Shown here piece by piece: positions 48,584-61,161 of a stretch of DNA of 64,000 nucleotides (position 1 is its first letter; the number at the start of each line of letters is the position of its first letter). The notes beneath the pieces are model-generated. The model saw only the letters and a program-made list of their open reading frames with translations, ran no database searches and was not told where the DNA came from. A program made the position numbers and the translations under genes. Source of the stretch: an uncultured Anaerolineae bacterium (GTDB taxonomy: Bacteria; Chloroflexota; Anaerolineae; Aggregatilineales; Phototrophicaceae); contig CALKJO010000003.1 in assembly GCA_937995825.1 (NCBI GenBank), positions 186,001-250,000 of the forward strand, in the 5' to 3' direction.

Positions 48584-51500
48584 ATGTCTCGAAAGAAAGT
48601 TTCACTCAATCACTGGAGCCTGCCGCTGGCACTGGCGCTGCTCTTGGTGCTGAGCGCCTGCAACCTGTCCACCAGCAGCGATGCCGGACAATCGGCACTG
48701 ACGCTGGACACAACGATCACGCCGCTTCCAAGCCGCACCCCCGCATCAACCAGCGGCGCACCAACTCCGCTCCCGCTGGGGACAATTTCCACACCTCAGC
48801 TCACCCTGGTTCGCCCGACGAATATTCCGCCAACGGCGGTGGTGATTCTGCCTCCAACCGGCTTTCAGCCGGTCATCCCCACTAATACCAGCCCGCCGGT
48901 GAGCATTGTGATCATTTCCCCTGTTCCGGGCAATGTGATCGCGGGCAATGTCCAGGTGTTGGGCGCGGCAGTGCATCCCCAGTTCTTACAGTATCAGCTT
49001 GAATATGCTGAAGATAACGGCTCGAACATCTGGTTCCCGGCAACCGGAGCCGTTCAGACACCCGTCATCAATGGAGTCCTGGGAGTCTGGAGTACAGGCG
49101 GGCTGCGCGATGGAGCTTACGCGCTGCGGCTGCGGGTTTACCTGCGCGATGGCACGACGCTGGCAACGGTCGTCAACAATATCCGCGTCCAGAATCAGGC
49201 GCCGACTCCTGTGCCTTCGCCTACACCCAATGCTCCGCGTCCAGTCGCTGCATTCACGCAGGATGTCACATCGGGTCTAGTTCCGCTGACTGTCCGTTTC
49301 ACCAATCAGTCCAGCGGGGAGATCACCAGCTATTCATGGAACTTCGGCGATGGCAGCAGCAGCAGCCAACGCGATCCGGTCAAGACCTTCAATGCGCCGG
49401 GCTTATTCAATGTCACGCTCACCGTCACAGGACCCGGCGGCACTGCCAATGTCACACGGCAGATCAACGTCCAGAGTCCAACCGCTCCGATCGCTGCATT
49501 CAGCCTTAATCCAGGGCGTGGAACTGCCCCGCTCACCGTTCAGTTCATCGATGAGTCCACCGGCACGATCACCTCCCGCTTATGGAATTTCAGCGATGGC
49601 AGCGCGAGCAGTGAGCGCAATCCGGTTCACACTTTCGTCAATCCTGGTCTTTACAATGTTTTCCTCACCGTGACTGGACCCGGTGGTTCATCGACGATCA
49701 CCCGGCAAATTCCGGTTGACAACCCAGTTCCGGCGACGCTCCAGCCGACAACGACCCAGACGCCAAGTGAAACCCCATCGGCGACTGCGCTGCCGATCCT
49801 GCCGAGCGCGACGCTTCCGCCAACCCAGACCGCTACATCCATCCCGACGGAAACCGCATCCTTCACGCCGATTCCAACCCACACGGCGACACTTGCCCCA
49901 ACGCTGACAGAAACGCCTACGCTAACGCCAACTTTGACCAATACGCCTGTTCCCCAGCCGACCGCCCTGTTTGATATTCAGCGGCTTGAGGCAGACCCGT
50001 TCACAGTGCAGTTCCTCAATCGCTCATCGGGCGTGATCGACACCACCTTCTGGGACTTCGGCGATGGTCAGACCAGTTTTGAAGCCAATCCGCTTCACAC
50101 CTATGCCAGCCCAGGCGCATTCACTGTGACTCTCACCGTGAACGGACCGGGTGGGTCGAACTCTATTCAAGCCTTTGTCGTGATTGAAGCGCCAATGCGC
50201 GCCAGCTTCACCAGTGCCGCGCTGCCGAACAATCCGCTGGCAGTGCAGTTCACGAACACCTCAACCGGAAATCCAATTGGGTTTGCTTGGGACTTCGGCG
50301 ATGGTCAGACCAGCACAGAAGTCAATCCAATGCATGTCTACAGCGCTTCCGGCACATACACCGTCGGGCTGACCGCGATCAACGCCAGCGGCGGGACGAA
50401 TTACTTCTCGCAGCAGGTGACGGTGCAGGCTCCTGTGATCGCCGCGTTCACAACGCAAGTGATGGGCGCGCAGACGATCCAGTTCATCAACCAATCGAGC
50501 GGCGCAGTCAGCTACATCTGGGATTTTGGCGACGGCACGAACAGCAGCGAGATCAGCCCATCTCATACGTACAGCGCGCCGGGAGTCTATACAGTGACGC
50601 TCCTGGCAAGCGCCGCCAATGGTGTGCAGAACACAGCGCAGCAGCAGGTCACGATCACGCAGCCGCTGAGTGCCAGCTTCGTCAGCAGCATTGTCGAAGG
50701 CAGCCCACTGGCACGCCTGTTCACACCTACTGTCACGGGCAGCGTGAGCGCGTATATCTGGGATTTTGGCGACGGCACGAACAGCAGCGAGTCCAACCCA
50801 CTGCACATTTATCCATCCGCTGGCATGTACAATGTGACGCTGACCGTGATCGGGACAGATGGCAGCAGCGCGAATGCGACAGGAAGCGTGCTGATCGAGC
50901 CGATTGTGGTCGTTGAACCGACAGTCGAGCCGACGCAGGATGTCTCGTTCACTCCAGGGATGGCAGGCAGCGCGCCAGTCATACCAGACATCCGCAGCCT
51001 GCTGGACAGCCTGCAGGGGCGCTTCCGCAACGGTGTTAACCAGGGCGCGCAGGCAGCGGTGTTCGCTCGTCTTGGCGATGAAGTTATGCTGAATGACGGC
51101 TATCTGGAGCCATTCGGCAGTAGCGCGTATCAGCTCGGCGAAAATGGCGATCTACAGTCGATCATCGACTGGTACAGCGCTGTTGGGAGCGATGGCTTCA
51201 ACAGCTTCAACCGTCAGACGGCAGGCGCGGGTCAGGGCTGGCGTCCCGTCGATCTGCTCGATCCGAGCCGCGCTGACAGCGCGCTGTGCGACACGGGAAG
51301 CGGCGAAACGCCGTTGGGCTGCGAACTGCGACGCACACGGGCAGCCGTCGCGCTGATCCAGGTCGGTTACCACAGCGCCAGAGCAGTCGATCCCGAGACT
51401 TTCCGCACGAATATGCGCGCCATTATCGACTCGGTCACCAATTACGGCGCGATTCCGGTGCTGTTCACCATTCGCCCCGGTCAGGACGCAGCGGGGACAG

Positions 51501-51724
51501 CAGCACTCAACGATGTGATCATCCAGCTCGGCGCAGAATACCAAATCCCGGTGATCAATGCGTGGCGCGCGCTCAATGATCTGCCCAATCCAGGGCTGAG
51601 CGCTGCGCCATCTGGAGCGGGCGATCTGAGCGTCAGCGCGACAAACAGCGCCGGGCTGAATGCGCTCAACCTGATCACGCTGCGCACTCTAGAACTGCTG
51701 CGAGCGCTCGTGTTCGATGCGTAG
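48584..51724 (+). CDS. PKD-repeat lipoprotein with degenerate SGNH-hydrolase domain
   Basis: A 1,046-residue surface protein. Lipobox LSAC gives Cys26. A Thr/Pro-rich stretch and an Ig-like domain (PVPGNVIAGNVQVLGAAVHPQ...) lead to six PKD domains with W-N/D-F-G/S-D-G motifs from Trp252 to Trp726. About 80 residues of Thr/Pro-rich linker separate repeats 2 and 3. Residues about 820-1046 look like an SGNH hydrolase, with ALIQVGYHSARAVDP, FRTNMRAIIDSVTNYGAIPVLFTIRPG and INAWRALNDLPNPG. Block I reads LGDEVM (Glu833 where Ser is expected), the block III Asn-Asp is HS and no Asp-x-x-His is seen, so it is probably not catalytic. It overlaps the next gene by 8 nt. Confidence 0.82.
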   Translation: MSRKKVSLNHWSLPLALALLLVLSACNLSTSSDAGQSALTLDTTITPLPSRTPASTSGAPTPLPLGTISTPQLTLVRPTNIPPTAVVILPPTGFQPVIPTNTSPPVSIVIISPVPGNVIAGNVQVLGAAVHPQFLQYQLEYAEDNGSNIWFPATGAVQTPVINGVLGVWSTGGLRDGAYALRLRVYLRDGTTLATVVNNIRVQNQAPTPVPSPTPNAPRPVAAFTQDVTSGLVPLTVRFTNQSSGEITSYSWNFGDGSSSSQRDPVKTFNAPGLFNVTLTVTGPGGTANVTRQINVQSPTAPIAAFSLNPGRGTAPLTVQFIDESTGTITSRLWNFSDGSASSERNPVHTFVNPGLYNVFLTVTGPGGSSTITRQIPVDNPVPATLQPTTTQTPSETPSATALPILPSATLPPTQTATSIPTETASFTPIPTHTATLAPTLTETPTLTPTLTNTPVPQPTALFDIQRLEADPFTVQFLNRSSGVIDTTFWDFGDGQTSFEANPLHTYASPGAFTVTLTVNGPGGSNSIQAFVVIEAPMRASFTSAALPNNPLAVQFTNTSTGNPIGFAWDFGDGQTSTEVNPMHVYSASGTYTVGLTAINASGGTNYFSQQVTVQAPVIAAFTTQVMGAQTIQFINQSSGAVSYIWDFGDGTNSSEISPSHTYSAPGVYTVTLLASAANGVQNTAQQQVTITQPLSASFVSSIVEGSPLARLFTPTVTGSVSAYIWDFGDGTNSSESNPLHIYPSAGMYNVTLTVIGTDGSSANATGSVLIEPIVVVEPTVEPTQDVSFTPGMAGSAPVIPDIRSLLDSLQGRFRNGVNQGAQAAVFARLGDEVMLNDGYLEPFGSSAYQLGENGDLQSIIDWYSAVGSDGFNSFNRQTAGAGQGWRPVDLLDPSRADSALCDTGSGETPLGCELRRTRAAVALIQVGYHSARAVDPETFRTNMRAIIDSVTNYGAIPVLFTIRPGQDAAGTAALNDVIIQLGAEYQIPVINAWRALNDLPNPGLSAAPSGAGDLSVSATNSAGLNALNLITLRTLELLRALVFDA
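50516..50791 (+). repeat. 36-bp direct repeat between PKD domains 5 and 6
   Basis: The 36 bases at 50516-50551 recur unchanged at 50756-50791, exactly 240 bp (80 codons) apart, each covering the WDFGDG motif. A similar 26-bp identity joins domains 3 and 4 (50051-50076 and 50288-50313). It shows recent duplication or gene conversion among PKD units. Confidence 0.85.
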
Positions 51725-53306
51725 CGCGCGTCTCATTCCAGTCATCATCGCTCTCGCAGCCGGCATCCTGGCTGGCTGCGAGGGCAGAACCAGCAGTGCC
51801 ATCGTTGTGTCGCTGGTTGCGGACGGGCGCGAACGCGCTGTTCAGCAGTCATCACCGATGACGGTAGGCGAACTGCTGCGCGCTGCCAATGTCGAACTAG
51901 GCGCGCTTGACGAAGTGAACCCGCCCCTGTTCACACAGATCACAAATGGGATGCGCATTACGGTCGCCCGCGTGCAGCAGACAACGGAATGTCAGAATCA
52001 GGACATCCCGTTCCGCGAACAGCGCATTCTGAACGAAGGACTGCGACCGGGCGAAGAACGCCTGGGTCAAGCTGGACAAAACGGCGTTGAGCAGGTCTGC
52101 TACCGTGTCACCGTGCGCGATGGGCGGCGGCTCGATCCGGTTGAGATCAGCCGGACGCTGGTGACCATGCCGCAAGACCTGGTCATTTACGTCGGACCGA
52201 CGGGCGAACTCGATACGATCCCGATCCCTGGCACGCTGGCATATGTCAGCAGCGGCAACGCCTGGCTGATGCGCGGAAACAGCGCCAGCAAACGCCCACT
52301 GACCAGCACGGGCGATCTCGATGAGCGGGTTTTCCGGCTGTCTGCCGATGGTCGGCAGCTTCTGTTCGCCCGTCGCACACCGCCCGCTGAGCGCGCGTCC
52401 GCCTTCAACCGTCTCTGGCTACTTTCAGACACCACTCGTGAAGCGCAGCCGACGGCGCTCGTCCCGCAGAACGTCCTCTATGCCGATTGGGTTCCTGGCG
52501 CAGAGAACACCATTAGCTACTCGACCGGTGAGCCGCGCGCCGCCGCTCCCGGATGGGAGTCCTATAACGATCTGTGGATCATGCGCCTCGATCCAGGCAC
52601 TGGCGACTCGGTCGGGCTGCGCGAGCTGGTCAGCCGCTCACAGGGCGGGCTTTACGGCTGGTGGGGGACAGAATTCCAATGGTCGCCCGATGGCAGCCGT
52701 CTGGCATGGACACGCGCCGATTCGATGGGGGTGGTCGATCTGAACACGGGCGCGCTCAATCCCCTGCTGACCTATCCAGTTTTCAATACGCGCCAGTCGT
52801 GGTCATGGCGCGCGACAGTCTCATGGACTCCCAACGCCAATTTGCTGCTCACCACCGTACATGGCGATCCGATTGGCAGCGAACCGCCGGAGTCCAGCCC
52901 AGCATTTCACGTCACCGCTGCCGATCCTAACGGGACATTCAGCGTCAACATCGTTGAAAATGCCGGAATCTGGTCGATGCCGCGCTTTTCGCCGCTGCAA
53001 AACATCGGGGATCGAGTGGTTGGCTCTATCGCGTATCTGCGCGCGCGCGATCTCGCCAACAGCATCAATGACTCCGCCGAATATGACCTGATCGTCGCTG
53101 ATCGCGATGGCAGCAACGCGCGCAGGCTGTTTCCAGCCGCCGGTCAGCCCGGACTGACCGCCTCCGCCGGACTCACCTGGAGTCCGGACGGCACAATGCT
53201 GGCGTTTATCTATCAGGGCAATCTGTGGGTGATCGATGCCGCATCGGGAATGGCGCATCAGCTCACCCTGGACGGCAGAGCCTCCCGTCCGGTCTGGACG
53301 CGCTGA
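51717..53306 (+). CDS. lipoprotein with G5/DUF348-like and beta-propeller domains
   Basis: A 529-residue lipoprotein with lipobox LAGC (Cys21). An N-terminal ubiquitin-like DUF348 segment (VVSLVADGRERAVQQSSPMTVGELLRAANVELGALDEVNPP) is followed by a G5-like domain (FREQRILNEGLRPGEERLGQAGQNGVEQVCYRVTVRDG). From residue about 180 there is a TolB-type propeller with blades such as ERVFRLSADGRQLLFARR, TEFQWSPDGSRLAWTR and AGLTWSPDGTMLAFIYQGNLWVID. DUF348 and G5 domains are common in wall-active Rpf/YabE proteins, so cell-wall contact is inferred. It is coupled to the PKD lipoprotein and lies 3 nt before the hydrolase-ligase fusion. Confidence 0.8.
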   Translation: MRSARLIPVIIALAAGILAGCEGRTSSAIVVSLVADGRERAVQQSSPMTVGELLRAANVELGALDEVNPPLFTQITNGMRITVARVQQTTECQNQDIPFREQRILNEGLRPGEERLGQAGQNGVEQVCYRVTVRDGRRLDPVEISRTLVTMPQDLVIYVGPTGELDTIPIPGTLAYVSSGNAWLMRGNSASKRPLTSTGDLDERVFRLSADGRQLLFARRTPPAERASAFNRLWLLSDTTREAQPTALVPQNVLYADWVPGAENTISYSTGEPRAAAPGWESYNDLWIMRLDPGTGDSVGLRELVSRSQGGLYGWWGTEFQWSPDGSRLAWTRADSMGVVDLNTGALNPLLTYPVFNTRQSWSWRATVSWTPNANLLLTTVHGDPIGSEPPESSPAFHVTAADPNGTFSVNIVENAGIWSMPRFSPLQNIGDRVVGSIAYLRARDLANSINDSAEYDLIVADRDGSNARRLFPAAGQPGLTASAGLTWSPDGTMLAFIYQGNLWVIDAASGMAHQLTLDGRASRPVWTR

Positions 53307-53309
53307 AGC

Positions 53310-56300
53310 ATGAATCGGCTGCACCTCATCCTGATCGCCTCGCTGATGGCACTGTGCGGCAGTCTGACGGCATGGGGAACGAGCATTATACAGCGCGATC
53401 ATGATCTGCGCGGCTATGTCGATCCGACGCAAAATCCAGACTTGCCCTACCGTATTCCGCGCTTGGGCGTAAATGCCGATCTGACTCAGTATTTAAACCC
53501 AGAAACTGAGCTGCGGCGCATGGAAGCCGCCGGATTGAACTGGGTGCGTCAGCGCGTTTTATGGCGCGAAATCGAACGCGAACCCAGCCTGTATGACTGG
53601 GATGTCTGGGATCGGATCATTCCGCTGTTTGAAAGCTTTCCATCCCTGCAGTTGGTCGCTGTCCTGGTCGAGTCACCTGAGTGGGCGCGTTCGCGCGGGG
53701 GGACGACTGCGCCGCCGGACGATCCAGCAGATTTCGCGCGCTTCGCCGCTGCCTTCGCTGAGCGCTATGGCGCATGGGTCGATCATTACCAAATCTGGGA
53801 TGAACCCAACCTGATCGATGCATGGGGCAGCTTAGCGCCTGAGCCATCGGCATATCTGGCGCTTCTGGCAGCTTCTTATCGCGCCATCCACGCGGCGGAT
53901 GCGGACGCAGCGGTGATCATGGCAGCGCTCGCCCCGACGACTGAGCGCACTGAGCGCAACATCAGCGATCTGGATTTTCTGTCGCGTCTGTATGCACTTG
54001 GAGTAAGCTCGTTCATAGATGCAGCCGCTGCAAAACCTTACGGTTTCAATGACTCGCCGCTGGATCGGACGGTCTCGGCGGACAGGCTGAATTTCTCGCG
54101 TCTGATCGCGCTGCGCGAGATCATGACCGCGCATGGTGATGGGCGCAAGGCGCTGTGGGCGTCCGAATGGGGCTGGAACGCCCTACCGTCAGATTGGTCG
54201 GGCGTGCCCTCCATCTGGGGAACAGTCACACCCGAACAGCAGATCACTTATACACGGCAGGCGATCCAGCGGGCAGATCGCGAATGGGCATGGTTAGGCG
54301 GCATGATCCTAGAGTCGTGGCAGCCGAACGCGCCGACCGATGATCCGCGCTGGGGCTTCGCGCTGATCGACCCGTCAGGCGCGCCAAAGCCGCTGCTTGA
54401 GGCGCTGGCGGAAGTAGAAACGTCTGGCGCTGTGAACGGCTTATATTTCCCCGCCAATCCTTATGCGCGCTACAGCGGCGTGTGGACATTTGGCGAACTG
54501 GGGGCAGACATCGGCTGGGTGCAGGACAGCCGATTAGCGTTTGATTTCATCGGCAGCGATGTGGCGCTGTTACTACGTAGAGATGACTACTTGGCTTTTC
54601 TCTATCCCACTATCGACGGACGCCCCACCGATGCGACGCCGCGCGATGCCGATGGGCGCAGTTTCATTACGCTGCGCAGCGCCGATCTGACCCCAAGCCT
54701 CGACCTGATCCCAGTCGCGCGCGGACTGCCCTTGCAAACCCACACGCTCGAGATCATCGCGGATCGCGGCTGGGATCGCTGGGCGCTGGCGGGATTTGCG
54801 GTCAGCTCCGGCGATCTGGCTGTGCCGTATAATCGCCAAATCAGCGCCGCGCTCTTCACCTCGATTCTGGCACTGGGAGCCGTAATCGCCTCCGCCGTTC
54901 AGATCGACTGGCGTCCGCTGGGGATGAGTCTTTCAGGGCTGTGGAACGGCATTAACACGGCGGGTCAGCTCGGCATCAGCTTTATAACTTCAGCCGCGCT
55001 AATGCTGGGAATGCTTTTGACCTGGCGCGAGCCAACTCCATCGGTATTCACACGCGAGCCGGCGCAGTTGGGGCTGGCGCTGGTGACTGCCGGATTCATC
55101 TATCTTCAACCGCATGTCCTGGTCGTCATTTGTGCCGCTGTCGTTCTATGCTGGATCATCTATCATCGGCTCGACTACGGGCTGCTGCTGGCGCTGTTCT
55201 ACGCGCCGTTTTTTCTGTTTCCAGTCGAACTCGCCCGCTTCGCCTTCCCGATGACGGAATTGATCATCCTCATCACCGCGCTTGCCGCAGCGCTGCGCGG
55301 ACTGGCTGCATGGGGACGGATTCGTCAGATGAGCGTTTCGGGCTTTACACCTTCAGTTCGCCTGTCCGCAATTGACCTGGGCTTTTTGGGCTGGATCGCT
55401 ATCAGCCTGGTCTCGATCTCGTGGGCGAGTCAGCGCGCCCCTGCCCTGACTGAGCTACGTACACTGATCATCGAGCCAGCCCTGTTTTACGCTGTCTTTC
55501 GCAGTCTGCGGCGTGATACGCGAGTCGATCTGCGGCTGGCGGACGGCTTGATCGCGTCCGGGGCGCTGGTCGCCGTGATCGGGCTGATCATGTATGCCGC
55601 TGGACAAGGCATCATCACCGCCGAGGGCGGATCAGGGCGGCTTGCGGGCGTGTATGGGTCGCCCAACAACGTTGGCTTGATCCTGGGGCGCTGTATTCCG
55701 TTTGCGCTGGCATTTCTGTTGGTCGGTGTTGATCACCGCCGCCGGCTGGTCGCAGGCGCGGCACTGATTCCAATGGCGGCGGCGCTGCTGCTGAGCCAGA
55801 GCGCAGGCGCGCTGTTCGTCGGTGTTCCGATCGCAGTCGGGAGCGTCATCCTGCTGATACACGGTCGGCGCGCGCTTGTCCCGCTGCTTGGACTGACCGC
55901 GATCAGCGCGACATTCATGGTCGCTGCGCTCCAGTCCGCCCGCTTCGAGCGCCTGCTCGATTTTGCGCAGGGAACGACCTTCTTTCGGATTCGCGTCTGG
56001 GAGAGCGCGCTGCAAGCAGTCCGCGATCATCCGATAACGGGTCTCGGATTGGATCAGTTCTTGTACGCCTTTCAGGGGCGCTATATGATACCGGATGCTT
56101 GGCAGGAACCGAGTCTTTCGCATCCCCACAACGTCATCCTCGACCTCTGGACGCGCCTAGGGCTGATCGGTCTCACCGTGTTCGCTTGGATGCAGTTTGC
56201 ATTCTGGCGTTCGATGCGACGAGCCTATCTTCGCGCTCAAAGTCATCCAGTGACGTGTGCGATCCTCATCGGCGCGATGGGCAGCATGATCAATCTGCTT

Positions 56301-56423
56301 GCGCATGGGTTGATCGATAACAGCATCTTCGTTCTCGACCTAGCGGTGATATTCGCGTTTCTGATGGGCATTGCAGCGCGCCAATCCCCACCGTTTATCG
56401 ACTCGACCTCCGACGTTACATAA
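53310..56423 (+). CDS. fusion of glycoside-hydrolase-like domain and O-antigen-ligase-type membrane domain
   Basis: A 1,037-residue protein. An N-terminal signal anchor (LHLILIASLMALCGSL) is followed by a TIM-barrel domain with GH39/GH5-like marks: GLNWVRQRVLWREIE, acid/base candidate Glu165 in IWDEPNL, and nucleophile candidate Glu286 in WASEWGWN. A beta-rich segment (about 390-500) follows, then about a dozen transmembrane helices to residue 1030 of the Wzy_C/WaaL type, with FRIRVWESALQAVRDHPITGLGLDQFLYAF and SHPHNVILDLWTRLGLIG. The barrel would face outside. It may trim and ligate, or polymerise, a surface glycan. The frame is uninterrupted over the junction. Confidence 0.8.
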   Translation: MNRLHLILIASLMALCGSLTAWGTSIIQRDHDLRGYVDPTQNPDLPYRIPRLGVNADLTQYLNPETELRRMEAAGLNWVRQRVLWREIEREPSLYDWDVWDRIIPLFESFPSLQLVAVLVESPEWARSRGGTTAPPDDPADFARFAAAFAERYGAWVDHYQIWDEPNLIDAWGSLAPEPSAYLALLAASYRAIHAADADAAVIMAALAPTTERTERNISDLDFLSRLYALGVSSFIDAAAAKPYGFNDSPLDRTVSADRLNFSRLIALREIMTAHGDGRKALWASEWGWNALPSDWSGVPSIWGTVTPEQQITYTRQAIQRADREWAWLGGMILESWQPNAPTDDPRWGFALIDPSGAPKPLLEALAEVETSGAVNGLYFPANPYARYSGVWTFGELGADIGWVQDSRLAFDFIGSDVALLLRRDDYLAFLYPTIDGRPTDATPRDADGRSFITLRSADLTPSLDLIPVARGLPLQTHTLEIIADRGWDRWALAGFAVSSGDLAVPYNRQISAALFTSILALGAVIASAVQIDWRPLGMSLSGLWNGINTAGQLGISFITSAALMLGMLLTWREPTPSVFTREPAQLGLALVTAGFIYLQPHVLVVICAAVVLCWIIYHRLDYGLLLALFYAPFFLFPVELARFAFPMTELIILITALAAALRGLAAWGRIRQMSVSGFTPSVRLSAIDLGFLGWIAISLVSISWASQRAPALTELRTLIIEPALFYAVFRSLRRDTRVDLRLADGLIASGALVAVIGLIMYAAGQGIITAEGGSGRLAGVYGSPNNVGLILGRCIPFALAFLLVGVDHRRRLVAGAALIPMAAALLLSQSAGALFVGVPIAVGSVILLIHGRRALVPLLGLTAISATFMVAALQSARFERLLDFAQGTTFFRIRVWESALQAVRDHPITGLGLDQFLYAFQGRYMIPDAWQEPSLSHPHNVILDLWTRLGLIGLTVFAWMQFAFWRSMRRAYLRAQSHPVTCAILIGAMGSMINLLAHGLIDNSIFVLDLAVIFAFLMGIAARQSPPFIDSTSDVT

Positions 56424-56463
56424 TATAGACTTATATAACGGGACGATGGGGAGCTGGGTCATC

Positions 56464-57024
56464 ATGAAAGCGAAGGTCAACAAGGTCACCATTCAGATCA
56501 TGCATGGCGATGTCTATAACGCTGGGACTGCCGGGATCGCCGTACAAACCAACTCTGACCTCGAATTGAATGAAACACTGCTGGCGAAAGCCGGACCCAG
56601 TATCCTGCGAGAAACTGCTTTGATCGGCTGGTGCGACGTTGGATCAGCAGTGATAACCGGTAAAGGGAATCTACCTGATCCGATTGAAAAAGTCTTACAT
56701 GTAGTAGGTCCGCGCTGGGGCGAAGGCAGTGAGCGCGGCAAGCTCGCTGGCGCGACCTTCGAATGCTTGCGGTTGGCTGAGTCCAACCGGCTGAGATCGC
56801 TGGCGCTGCCGCCGATCTCGACTGGCGCACTCGGCTATCCGTTGGAAAACTGCGCCAAGACGATGATCGGACAGGTCATCGATTTCACTTTTGAAGACCT
56901 CAAGGCGCTTTCAAAAGTCATCTTCTGCCTGGAAGATGATGTTGCATTCGAGATTTTCAGGCGCGAATTCAGCGCCCAGCTCAACGAACTCAAGTCAAAC
57001 GGTGACGGAAAAGTCCAGGTTTGA
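56464..57024 (+). CDS. macro-domain-like protein
   Basis: A 186-residue cytoplasmic protein with a macro domain pattern: [19 protein letters not shown] as the first strand and loop, [14 protein letters not shown], and [14 protein letters not shown] as the phosphate-binding loop. Macro domains bind ADP-ribose and some remove it from proteins, RNA or O-acetyl-ADP-ribose. The usual NAAN-x-x-L-x-G-G-G-V segment is altered ([19 protein letters not shown]), so activity is uncertain. ATG 56464 follows a GGGGAG site. It sits within the glycan island, 43 bp before the SDR gene and on the same strand. Confidence 0.75.
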
Positions 57025-57067: not shown

Positions 57068-58000
57068 TTGCGCGTTTTAATCACTGGCGCGGCCGGATTC
57101 ATCGGCTCGCATCTCTGCGACCGGTTTCTCGCAGAAGGACACGATGTCATCGGCATGGATAATCTGATCACCGGAGCGATGCGCAATATCGCTCACCTGA
57201 CGGAACACCCGAATTTTACTTTTATCCATCACAATGTCACGCAGCATATTCACATCGACGGCACTCTGGACGCGATTCTGCATTTCGCCTCTCCCGCCAG
57301 CCCGGTTGATTATCTTAAACTGCCGATTCAGACTTTGAAAGTCGGCGCACTCGGCACACACAACACGCTGGGGTTAGCGCGCGCCAAAAGCGCGCGGTAT
57401 CTGCTCGCATCGACCTCAGAAATCTACGGTGACCCGCTGGTACATCCCCAGCCCGAAACCTACGTCGGCAATGTCGATGCCATCGGTCCGCGCGGGGTCT
57501 ACGATGAGGCAAAGCGCTTTGCCGAAGCGATGACGATGGCATATCACCGCGCGCACGGGTTGGACACGCGCATTGTCCGCATCTTCAACACCTACGGACC
57601 GCGTATGCGCCTCAATGATGGGCGCGTCGTCCCGAATTTCATCGCACAGGCGTTGAGAGGCGAACCGCTTACTGTCTACGGAGACGGCAAACAAACCCGC
57701 AGCTTTCAATACATTGACGATCTGATCGAGGGCGTGTACCGCCTGCTGCACAGCGCCTACACGCAGCCGGTCAATATTGGCACACCGTTTGAGAAGTCGA
57801 TCCTGGAATTTGCGGAAATCGTTAACGAACTGACCGGCAATTCCGCAGGTATCATCTTCAAAGATGAACGTATTCAGGGTGACCCGCAGACACGGCGTCC
57901 TGACACCACCCGCGCTCGCACTCTACTCAAATGGGAACCACGAGTCGATCTTTACGATGGTCTGCGGCGCACGATCGCCTATTTCCGTGAGGTATTGTGA
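57068..58000 (+). CDS. NAD-dependent SDR, UDP-glucuronate decarboxylase-like
   Basis: A 310-residue extended short-chain dehydrogenase: Rossmann loop [54 protein letters not shown], catalytic Tyr145 and Lys149 in YDEAKRFAE, and [22 protein letters not shown] with [15 protein letters not shown]. This combination is that of UDP-glucuronate decarboxylase (UDP-xylose synthase), so it probably makes a nucleotide sugar for the adjacent glycan genes. The start is TTG 57068 with AGAGGA 7 nt upstream; no ATG fits the fold. It overlaps the next gene by 4 nt (GTGA). Confidence 0.85.
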
Positions 58001-59448
58001 CCAACCCAGCATCGCGACGATGGAATTCGGAATGGCTGCTGATCGCACTTGCGGGCGTGAACGCAGTTGGTTTGGCGCTTCTACCATTAGAAACTGCAGC
58101 GCTGGCGCTTTTTCTGATGACCGCAGCCATCGCCGCTGCCATCACGCCATCCGCCGCGCTGATCATCATGCTGATCGTCGCCCCACTGCGCACGCTGATG
58201 CTGACTGAAGCCCCCGGCTTGCTTCCGCTGGATGTGGGTCAGATCAGCTTAGGAGTCGCAGCGGCATCTTGGATCGCCGCATCCATCGTTCGGGAAAGAT
58301 CCTTCCGGCTGATTTGGTCGCCAGTTTACCTCCCGCTGATCGCTTTCATCGCTGTCACTGGACTAACAGCATTCACCGCCTGGTCGCTGAGTGCCTGGTT
58401 GAGCGAATGGCTGAAATGGATTCAAGTAGGATTGGTCGTTATGATCTGCCTCAGCTTGGCTCCTCAATGGCGAATGCTGGTATTTGGATTGGTCGTCGCA
58501 GGTCTCGCCAATGCCATCATCGGCATTTTGGAATATTTCGGGGTGAGCGGCGCGCTTCATCTGCTGATCAATGAGTTGCATTTTCGCGCCTTCGGCACGT
58601 TCGGTCAGCCGAATCCATTTGGCGGCTTCATGGGGCTGATCGCACCCATCGCGCTCCTGACTGGGCTTGGATATGCCGCGCGTTTCGTGCATCAGCGGCG
58701 CGTTGATACCCTGCTGACAGCGCTGTTCTATGCGATCTCCGGCGCGATTATGGTAACTGCCTTGTACATGTCCTTCAGCCGAGGCGCATGGCTGGCATTC
58801 GCCGTCAGCGCAAGCGCGATGGCGTTCGCGCTGCCGCGCCGCCTCGCTTACGGAGCCGCCATCGCAGCGGCTGGACTGCTGCTCATCGGCGGGCTTTGGC
58901 TCAGCGGCAGACTGCCGCAGTCGATTGTGGAGCGCGTCAGCAGCATCACTCAGGAAACGCTGTCGATCTCGGATGTGCGCGGCGTCGATGTAACGCCGGA
59001 GAATTACGCCAATATCGAACGTCTCGCACATTGGCAGGCGGCGATCAATATGGCGACCGCATCCCCCTGGCTGGGCGTTGGATTTGGGAACTATGAAATT
59101 GCTTACCCCGAATTTCGCCTGCTTTATTGGCATTTCCCGCTCGGTCATGCCCATAATTACTACTTGAATGTGCTGGCTGAGGCTGGCATGATTGGATTGT
59201 TAACCTATCTTGCCCTGTGGGTCGGCGTCGCGCTTGTCATCTGGCAAATCCGCCGTCATCCCGATCCCCTGGCGCGTTGCACTGACGTGGGTTTGTTGGG
59301 AAGCTGGATATATCTGGCAGTTCACAGTCTGACCGACAATTTATATGTTAATAATATATTTCTGCATCTGGGTATTGTGATCGGAGTCGCGGCTGTCCTT
59401 CATTGGCAGGCGCAGAACGGAACACGATGGCACGCGAGGCTCACATGA
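57997..59448 (+). CDS. O-antigen ligase/polymerase-type membrane protein
   Basis: A 483-residue polytopic protein with about eleven transmembrane helices and the Wzy_C motif region: [31 protein letters not shown], then a large extracytoplasmic loop with [36 protein letters not shown] and [17 protein letters not shown]. It probably polymerises or transfers undecaprenyl-linked glycan outside the membrane. It is the second ligase-type gene here, without the hydrolase part of the protein at 53,310. The start is GTG 57997, overlapping the SDR stop; the 3' end overlaps the GtrA gene by 4 nt. Confidence 0.85.
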
Positions 59449-60035
59449 ATCAGAGTGAAACCTTGAGAATTCGCAAGATAGCAGTGCGCAATCCCCTTGA
59501 TCCAATGATCCTCGCGGTCGCCAGTCGATTCGGGAGCCGATCTAAAGAAGTTGAACGTTTCATTAAATTTGCTATTGTCGGCGCATTTGGTGCGATCATC
59601 GACTCAGGAACAGTTTTTCTGCTTCAATGGCTGGTGCTGCCCCCTGTTGAACCCAACAAAGCGCTGAAAGTCGCCGTCGTCAGTACCATCGGCTTTCTGG
59701 CAGCCGTCATCAGCAATTTCATCTGGAACCGAGTGTGGACGTACCCCGACTCGCGGGGGCGCTCGATCCGCCGTCAGCTTGCGCAGTTTGCCACCATCAA
59801 TTTTATCGGTTGGGTTGGTCGCACGATCTGGATCACCATCGCTTACGCCTGGCTCGGCGCGCTGCTGATGCCGATCCTGCTGCCTGAAATTCAGCTTTTC
59901 CGTCCTGGTTACGCCCCATCCGCCAGTGCAGAAGCCAAGCTCGGCACGATGGCAGCGTGGCTGATCGGCGTTACAGTGGTGATGATCTGGAACTTCCTCG
60001 CAAACCGCTACTGGACGTACAACGACGTGAAATAG
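59445..60035 (+). CDS. GtrA-family membrane protein
   Basis: A 196-residue protein with a soluble N-terminal 45 residues and four transmembrane helices: FIKFAIVGAFGAIIDSGTVFLLQW, VVSTIGFLAAVISNFIWNRVWTYPDS, LAQFATINFIGWVGRTIW and the C-terminal VTVVMIWNFLANRYWTYND. GtrA proteins are thought to flip or cooperate in moving undecaprenyl-phosphate-linked sugars; this one has the conserved F-x-x-N-R-x-W-T-(Y/F) repeats. A longer-than-usual loop (ALLMPILLPEIQLFRPGYAPSASA) precedes the last helix. It is coupled to the ligase gene by an ATGA overlap. Confidence 0.88.
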   Translation: MNQSETLRIRKIAVRNPLDPMILAVASRFGSRSKEVERFIKFAIVGAFGAIIDSGTVFLLQWLVLPPVEPNKALKVAVVSTIGFLAAVISNFIWNRVWTYPDSRGRSIRRQLAQFATINFIGWVGRTIWITIAYAWLGALLMPILLPEIQLFRPGYAPSASAEAKLGTMAAWLIGVTVVMIWNFLANRYWTYNDVK

Positions 60036-60036
60036 C

Positions 60037-61161
60037 ATGGCTAAAATTGCCATCGATTACACCCCCGCTTACGAACAGGGCGGCGGCATTGGGCGTTATG
60101 TTCGGGAATTGGTTGCTGCGCTCGCCAATCAAGACAGCGTCACCCAATATCGCCTGTTTGTCGCTGGCGCAAAGGCGCTGCCGTCTCCGCCGGGGGCAAA
60201 CTTCAGATGGTCTTCCACCGAGATTTCGCCGAAGTGGTGGGCGCGCCTCTGGCATCGCGCGCAAATCCCCTTTCCAGTCGAGTTTTTCACAGGCAAAGTT
60301 GATCTTTTTCACGCCACCGACTTCACGCTGCCGCCGACCCTGTGTCGAACGCTCCTGACTGTGCATGATCTGTCGTTTGTGCGCGTCCCGGAAACGACGA
60401 GCCCAACCCTGAGACATTACTTAGATAAAGTGGTTCCACGCTCAGTGCGGCGCGCCGATCATATCCTCGCGGATTCGCAGGCGACTAAAGATGATCTGAT
60501 CGCGCTTTATGGCACGCCGAGCGATAAAGTAACTGTGCTGCTGAGCGGCGTCGAACCGCGTTTTCGTCCGGTCACTGATGTGAATTCGCTTGAGCGTGTG
60601 CGCGCGCGCTATGCGCTGCCGCGGCGACCTTACATTCTCTCCGTTGGAACGGTGCAGCCGCGCAAGAACTACGCGCGGTTGGTCGAGGCGCTTAGTCTGC
60701 TGCGCGGGCAAGGGCTGGATGTCTCGCTGGTCATTGTCGGAGCAGCGGGCTGGCTGGCTAATCCGATCTACGAAGCGATTAAACATCTGCACATGAGCGA
60801 ATTTGTGCATTTCACCGGTTTCGCCGACGATGCCGACCTACCTGCGCTGTACACAGGCGCGATCTGCGTCGCGATCCCCTCGCTTTACGAGGGCTTCGGA
60901 CTGCCAGTCCTGGAGGCGATGGCGTGCGGCACGCCCGTCCTAACCTCGAACGTCTCATCTCTGCCGGAGGTCGCAGGAGATGCTGCGCTGCTGATCGATC
61001 CGCACGAAACGCAAGCCATCGCCGACGGACTGACGCGCCTGATCACTGACTCGACGCTGCGCGAGCAGTTGATCGCGCGGGGCTATCAGCAGGCAGCGCG
61101 CTTCACTTGGGAGCGATCCGCACGCGAACTGCGAGCTGTTTACCATCAGATCCTAACCTAA
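60037..61161 (+). CDS. GT4-family glycosyltransferase
   Basis: A 374-residue GT-B glycosyltransferase. The N-terminal acceptor domain opens with KIAIDYTPAYEQGGGIGRYVRELVAALA. The C-terminal donor domain has ILSVGTVQPRKNYARLVEALSLLRGQG and the EX7E motif in YEGFGLPVLEAMACGTPV. The mannosyltransferase-like form suggests a role in building the surface glycan at the inner face of the membrane; the sugar donor is unknown. It starts 1 nt after the GtrA stop and ends the island; the next gene is 82 bp away with a weak TTCAGT/TATACT pair before it. Confidence 0.9.
   Translation: MAKIAIDYTPAYEQGGGIGRYVRELVAALANQDSVTQYRLFVAGAKALPSPPGANFRWSSTEISPKWWARLWHRAQIPFPVEFFTGKVDLFHATDFTLPPTLCRTLLTVHDLSFVRVPETTSPTLRHYLDKVVPRSVRRADHILADSQATKDDLIALYGTPSDKVTVLLSGVEPRFRPVTDVNSLERVRARYALPRRPYILSVGTVQPRKNYARLVEALSLLRGQGLDVSLVIVGAAGWLANPIYEAIKHLHMSEFVHFTGFADDADLPALYTGAICVAIPSLYEGFGLPVLEAMACGTPVLTSNVSSLPEVAGDAALLIDPHETQAIADGLTRLITDSTLREQLIARGYQQAARFTWERSARELRAVYHQILT

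Follow-up and report, generated by a model that had tools for sequence, protein, structure and literature searches.

Two kinds of described protein come closest to the gene analysed here. WaaL (solved structure 7tpg) and the Wzy_C polymerases share with it the Wzy_C domain, a conserved arginine and a conserved histidine, the latter within an HN..L......G..G stretch, and the arginine and histidine at these positions are catalytic in WaaL. PslG of Pseudomonas aeruginosa is a GH39-type endoglycosidase (GH, glycoside hydrolase) of the Psl operon (structures 5bx9, 4zn2 and 9g17) that combines a (beta/alpha)8 barrel with a beta-sandwich. Here, we describe a gene that joins both types of domain in one protein of 1037 amino acids (aa) and that lies in a 64,000-nucleotide (nt) stretch of DNA, the window, from an uncultured bacterium of the class Anaerolineae (positions 186,001 to 250,000 of contig CALKJO010000003.1).

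Two papers describe PslG as a glycosidase that associates with the membrane and belongs to a system for polysaccharide synthesis (PMC6813494, PMC11912335) and, in the second of them, as an endo-beta-glucanase, name its acid/base and nucleophile residues and report that its Asn164 contacts the -1 sugar (PMC11912335). The discussion in PMC6813494 places PslG beside BcsZ and AlgL as polysaccharide-operon glycosidases whose role in synthesis is debated.

A PslG-like barrel fused to a WaaL/Wzy_C-type membrane domain

The original prediction, made from the sequence of the window, was that one protein joins a GH-like barrel to an O-antigen-ligase-type membrane domain, and this is what we find: in a single frame, a transmembrane helix is followed by a PslG/GH39-type barrel, a beta-sandwich and a WaaL/Wzy_C-type membrane domain. 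An AlphaFold2 (AF2) model of the full-length protein, built from 12 sequences (mean predicted local distance difference test score, pLDDT, 73.5; predicted TM-score, pTM, 0.51), has a helix at residues 3-32, an eight-strand barrel from residue 52 to about 370, a beta-sandwich at 377-499 and a helical domain from 505 onwards. The fusion of barrel and ligase in one frame is real and conserved.

In the membrane half, Wzy_C (PF04932, residues 818-958) scores 60.9 bits against a cut-off of 31.7 and is the sole Pfam match of the protein. A profile built from 37 ligase halves and compared with solved structures matched WaaL 7tpg (E 3.2e-10) and nothing else up to E 10, and the two residues aligned with the WaaL arginine and histidine, Arg893 and His940, are present in 115 of 115 fused proteins. 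These data suggest that the membrane half of the Anaerolineae fusion probably assembles surface sugar chains. It differs from WaaL in that the fused protein adds the barrel, the sandwich and an extra N-terminal membrane helix; moreover, a lipid A core is unlikely as the acceptor, because these bacteria are regarded as single-membraned. The proposal that WaaL/Wzy enzymes normally stand alone is not quite right, as two further Wzy_C proteins encoded in tandem in the same genome (L003 and L004; C9, about 512-518 kb) likewise have an added domain, in the form of C-terminal TPR repeats and not of a glycosidase fold; the repeats are clear in L004 and weak, under the cut-off, in L003. The best NCBIfam match of the window's ligase half (residues 679-1024) is the model for the bicarbonate transporter IctB (TIGR00947), which we rejected because its 65.9 bits lie far under the cut-off of 366.4. 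The same model weakly matches all 37 ligase halves scanned, and automatic annotation may mislabel these proteins as bicarbonate transporters.

The barrel of the window protein matches no Pfam family at E 0.01, and the 37 fused barrels scanned at the same threshold match Glyco_hydro_42 (26), Cellulase (GH5; 13) and Glyco_hydro_39 (4). Because these matches are so varied, the GH family cannot be fixed by Pfam alone, and the GH39 label therefore rests on the resemblance to PslG, the closest solved structure by both fold and sequence. Residues 52-367 match PslG (5bx9/4zn2) by sequence with an E-value of about 4e-16, and PslG is the best match of a profile built from the 37 fused barrels (1.8e-33). 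In Foldseek, PslG ranks top for the whole AF2 model (E 1.3e-17) and first for a separate AF2 model of residues 40-506 (mean pLDDT 78.5; E 5.7e-25, TM 0.56/0.63, overall root-mean-square deviation 12 A), and these matches span 452-462 columns and thus cover the beta-sandwich besides the barrel. Structure prediction thus agrees with the barrel fold originally proposed.

Two acidic residues of the barrel had been singled out, Glu165 and Glu286. Counted along pairwise and profile alignments, they correspond to the acid/base and the nucleophile of PslG, the glutamates in its WNEPN and STEWGW stretches. In clan GH-A the acid/base follows strand beta4 and is directly preceded by Asn, and the nucleophile lies in beta7. 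The window protein has the acid/base-type Glu165 after beta4, with the same number as in PslG, and Glu286 in beta7; the residue before Glu165 is Asp164, however, a point missed in the original prediction. PslG is a separate protein with Asn164, Glu165 and Glu276, whereas here the barrel is fused to a ligase, Asn is replaced by Asp, and position 286 is not Glu in 84 of 115 proteins.

Distribution of the fusion and variation at its catalytic positions

Among 101 genomes, the window's own included, 73 contain a single match that runs from residue 77 or earlier to residue 944 or later (one of these, G012, with an in-frame TGA). In 16 further genomes the match is in pieces, several of them near contig ends, and in one of the 16, G065, a single long frame is partly matched. 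Having one near full-length match in 73 of 101 genomes, we reject a frameshift artefact. A split gene in relatives, which the original prediction had named as counting against it, occurs in one genome, G071, in which the frame is split near residue 490 with an 86-nt frame overlap on a 1.1-Mb contig (L084), either by a frameshift or as a true split. The domain order recurs in the class and the phylum. Some match at 1e-20, standalone barrels included, is present in 279 of 298 genomes of the class, the 19 without falling in three families; outside the window's order, at least 68 of 277 genomes have a single match of about 900 residues or more (from residue 122 or earlier to 983 or later; three with stops inside the match), and numerous others contain long frames that are matched piecewise. 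In the phylum, some match at 1e-15 occurs in 169 of 301 genomes; a near full-length single match is present in 21 of the genomes from outside the class. Because the aligned fused proteins come from 43 family codes, a chance fusion is excluded. A contig scan gave 11 loci, all in Chloroflexota or its groups, other phyla being otherwise outside the search, and the one record matched when plasmids were searched beyond the phylum covers 15% of the query and lacks the fusion. One genome (G122) has two full-length fused copies, L107 and L106, of which the L107 copy forms a long branch in the ligase tree.

For residue variation we aligned 115 distinct fused proteins of at least 900 aa, the window's included (distinct by residues 201-260; 131 frames contain both halves). 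L086 (G025), which is aberrant at beta4, was retained and counted as a gap at 164-165. Position 165 is Glu in 104 proteins (N 6, Q 3, D 1, gap 1) and position 164 is Asp in 96 (His 10, Asn 8, gap 1), the Asp164-Glu165 pair being present in 92 rows together with any of nine residues at 286; pairs such as His-Asn, Asp-Gln, His-Glu, Asn-Asn and Asp-Asp also occur. In contrast, position 286 is Glu in 31 proteins and otherwise Asn (21), His (20), Ala (18), Ser (11), Gln (7) or others (7), in an alignment anchored by the following Gly (114/115) and Trp (115/115), and its entropy ranks 239 of 324 barrel columns. In the barrel, W172, Y182, P209, D237, W289 and W328 are invariant in all non-gap rows, and the mean column entropy is 1.86 for the barrel versus 2.01 for the membrane half. 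Among fused proteins from the window's order (52, including six from loci assigned to it by similarity), Asp164 is present in 50 and Asn164 in one, Glu165 in 51 and Glu286 in 11; nine further proteins of the window's genus have Glu (3), Asn (3), Ser (2) or Ala (1) at 286. The eight fused proteins from outside the class are Asn-Glu/Glu in six cases (residues 164-165/286), Asp-Glu/Glu in one and Asp-Asp/Ala in one. In L088 and L089 (f17), His-Asn after beta4 and His at 286 leave none of the three catalytic-site residues.

A standalone barrel paralogue, matched at 1e-60 in 93 of 101 genomes (in a few as a fused or cut frame), served as control. In its best-scoring 30 loci, all of the window's family f1, Asn, Glu and Glu are kept in 30 of 30, while Glu286 is present in 7 of 36 fused rows of f1, a contrast that is imperfectly matched given the greater overall conservation of the paralogue (its other 29 loci are 57-68% identical to the window's copy, versus 37-63% for the fused rows). 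Similarly, 20 of 22 standalone frames found beside the loci or in the window's own genome, several of which are the same gene in overlapping loci, keep Asn-Glu and Glu, the two exceptions being the split G071 frame and a contig-cut fused frame.

Barrel and ligase also exist as neighbouring separate genes in L139, L140, L141 (f97) and L156 (f76), with overlapping frames in L139 and L140 (depending on the start), a 4-nt overlap in L141 and a 54-nt gap in L156; in L143 the two genes are about 1.6 kb apart. In L142, L151-L154 and L158 the fused gene is itself closely preceded by a standalone barrel gene. In a quick ligase tree, to which a long-branch warning applies, the fused and separate ligases share one clade and the second ligase encoded in the window lies in another. 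In a midpoint-rooted barrel tree (fork 94/96, not starred) the six Asn-Glu/Glu fused barrels from outside the class group with the standalone barrels, and the fused barrels of the class lie on the opposite side of the fork.

A proposed glycan-holding barrel and its alternatives

Combining these data, we consider it an even chance that the fused protein is a surface-polysaccharide polymerase/ligase with a captured PslG-like barrel that has turned, or is turning, into a glycan-holding domain. Because the barrel has lost a catalytic residue in most fused proteins examined, the residue patterns suggest that in most of them it probably grips the sugar chain rather than cutting it. This reading is economical because the key ligase residues, many barrel aromatics and D237 are kept, whereas the position of the nucleophile varies freely. 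The membrane half would transfer a lipid-linked glycan to an acceptor by means of Arg893 and His940, and the barrel, held by membrane helices at both ends, would sit outside the cell above the active site, an outward orientation suggested by the N-terminal helix and the topology of WaaL. The old glycosidase cleft would bind the growing or accepted chain, and the bound barrel could position the glycan or restrict chain length. The ancestor of the barrel would have been a working retaining glycosidase that, once joined to the ligase, was stripped of its hydrolytic machinery in steps, possibly with Asn164 changing to Asp first and repeated losses of the nucleophile following. Descent of the barrel from a beta-glycosidase would be in keeping with the product, since Wzy_C is reported in most Wzy proteins associated with beta-linked O-antigens (PMC12502699) and PslG is reported as an endo-beta-glucanase (PMC11912335).

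Several observations weigh against this reading. The window protein itself has both glutamates and may therefore, judged by its residues, still have residual cleavage activity. Loss is incomplete across the family, with 21 of 115 proteins Asp-Glu/Glu and seven Asn-Glu/Glu, and Glu165 is more conserved than a pure binding role would need; conversely, it is replaced by Asn in f17 and f55, and Asn-Glu/Glu occurs in L051, which lies near the window's genus, so that there is no single state and no simple one-way story. The at least 12 changes between Glu and other residues at position 286, and the 44 letter changes, counted on a FastTree tree with the three columns removed and without a shuffled control, do not separate gain from loss. 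Counterparts of the PslG Arg331-Asp332 pair that binds the -1 sugar are partly kept, with Asp345, aligned by eye, in 92 of 115. The greater overall conservation of the control paralogue also counts here, as do the 12 of 101 genomes that have standalone-type matches only and no fused copy, and the seven loci (L144-L150), among 12 in which a ligase of the clade stands alone, that lack a GH39-type gene within the stretch read. Finally, with a full-length pTM of 0.51 the AF2 model leaves the orientation of the barrel to the membrane unfixed.

The retained glutamates speak for the possibility, in our view unlikely, that the barrel is an active endoglycosidase like PslG that trims the polymer during synthesis and thereby sets chain length or releases the product. 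In Pseudomonas, PslG with both catalytic residues altered fails to restore Psl production according to PMC6813494, the discussion of which also cites earlier work finding no role for PslG. However, active trimming fits poorly with a nucleophile present in 31 of 115 fused proteins and variable even within the window's genus, and with Asp in place of Asn before the acid/base, given that the standalone paralogue has the full set throughout. The original suggestion that the barrel cleaves or holds the glycan thus narrows towards holding, because the nucleophile is kept in so few fused proteins and in every paralogue locus of the control, although cleaving is weakened and not removed for the window protein. 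The frequent Asp164-Glu165 pair just past beta4, tolerant of nine residues at 286, could also reflect a switch of mechanism, in which the pair acts as in hexosaminidases with the N-acetyl group of the substrate as nucleophile and loss of Glu286 is tolerated; the His-Asn, Asp-Gln, His-Glu, Asn-Asn and Asp-Asp rows speak against this, nothing supports a 2-acetamido sugar in the substrate, and we consider the switch very unlikely. Just as improbable is a fuller form of this idea, in which the barrel, once fused, went from double displacement to substrate-assisted catalysis and an N-acetylated surface glycan is edited or re-linked while the ligase half delivers it; if true, the protein would be a polymerase that carries its own editing domain, the mechanism of which changed across a class of bacteria.

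There are two further alternatives. The ligase half weakly matches TfpM and, in 12 of 37 members, PEP_O_lig_1, which would fit an O-oligosaccharyltransferase that moves the glycan to a protein, with the barrel selecting or holding the acceptor; but the TfpM score of the window protein is 22.7 against a cut-off of 600, RfaL is matched by more members (26/37) and a target protein was not identified, which makes this distinctly unlikely. Least likely of all is that the barrel no longer contacts glycan and is a structural remnant, retained for folding or stability only: loss of the nucleophile position would be expected of a remnant, but the invariance of several aromatics and of D237, and a barrel entropy no higher than in the membrane half, would not.

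Gene context and significance

The fused gene lies in a block (Table 1) with the order PKD lipoprotein, G5/propeller lipoprotein, fused gene, macro-domain gene, epimerase, second ligase, GtrA and GT4, separated by gaps of at most 43 nt or overlapping. Both lipoproteins adjoin the fused gene and a second ligase without a barrel starts 1573 nt past it, as originally described. By eye, lipobox-like LSAC and LAGC stretches can be read in the two lipoproteins. The end of the PKD lipoprotein (residues 921-1003) is weakly SGNH/GDSL-like, with 19.9 bits against a cut-off of 32.9, and may be a domain for acyl modification of the same glycan.

Table 1. Coordinates in the window of the fused gene, its domains and key residues, and of the neighbouring genes
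Feature	Position	Strand	Basis
Fused gene, 1037 aa	53310..56423	+	single ATG-started frame, no internal stop
N-terminal membrane helix, residues 3-32	53316..53405	+	AF2 helix 3-32; hydropathy 3-24
PslG/GH39-like (beta/alpha)8 barrel, residues 45-372	53442..54425	+	sequence, AF2, profile, Foldseek
Asp164 and acid/base-type Glu165, just past strand beta4 (157-162)	53799..53804	+	PslG alignment, AF2
Glu286, PslG nucleophile position, within beta7 (281-287), variable across family	54165..54167	+	alignment, AF2
Beta-sandwich, residues 377-499	54438..54806	+	AF2, Foldseek
Polytopic membrane domain, residues 505-1025	54822..56384	+	AF2, hydropathy
Wzy_C (PF04932), residues 818-958	55761..56183	+	Pfam
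Arg893, aligned with Arg265 (chain numbering) of WaaL 7tpg; 115/115	55986..55988	+	
His940 in HN..L......G..G stretch, aligned with second His of WaaL 7tpg LEHAHN; 115/115	56127..56129	+	
PKD lipoprotein, six PKD_4 stretches, weak SGNH/GDSL-like C-terminus	48584..51724	+	Pfam
G5 + DUF348 + propeller lipoprotein; homologue is commonest upstream neighbour	51717..53306	+	Pfam
Macro-domain protein, some loci only	56443..57024	+	Pfam
Nucleotide-sugar epimerase/dehydratase, commonest downstream neighbour	57068..58000	+	Pfam
Second Wzy_C protein without barrel (LIG2), clade separate from fused ligase	57997..59448	+	Pfam, tree
GtrA-like membrane protein	59403..60035	+	Pfam
GT4 glycosyltransferase	60037..61161	+	Pfam

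A census of 77 loci with a fused gene longer than 900 aa sought only same-strand homologues of the window genes (at least 50 bits) and over-represents the window's family. Upstream, the G5 lipoprotein recurs in 26 of the 67 loci with 2.5 kb of room and the PKD lipoprotein, less often, in 11; downstream, the 68 loci with 4.5 kb of room have the epimerase in 35, the second ligase in 25, GT4 in 24, GtrA in 21 and the macro-domain gene in 11. The fusion thus lies in a recurrent glycan-type gene block, and the expectation of conserved neighbours holds better for the G5 than for the PKD lipoprotein. In L045-L055, the G5, epimerase, second ligase, GtrA and GT4 genes are all present in 11 of 11 loci. 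Elsewhere in the genome, four matches to PF02397 (initiating sugar-phosphate transferases) and three to PF01943 (flippase-type) indicate that parts of a Wzx/Wzy pathway are present. In L151 (G484), the genes for a standalone barrel, the fused protein, the epimerase, the second ligase, an LPG-synthase-type membrane protein and two GT4 enzymes follow one another closely, next to dnaA and obg-like genes.

The folds, PslG and Wzy_C are already known; apparently new are their fusion and its catalytic decay, neither of which is named in the literature searched (titles and abstract openings, with subscription papers mostly outside coverage). A widespread lineage with a glycosidase-ligase fusion that mostly lacks the nucleophile is a natural experiment, which suggests that, at least here, the useful property may be to hold a glycan near the ligase and not to cut it. 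The fusion would also offer a molecular handle on the surface of the Anaerolineae, for which the literature searched gave no account of these enzymes.

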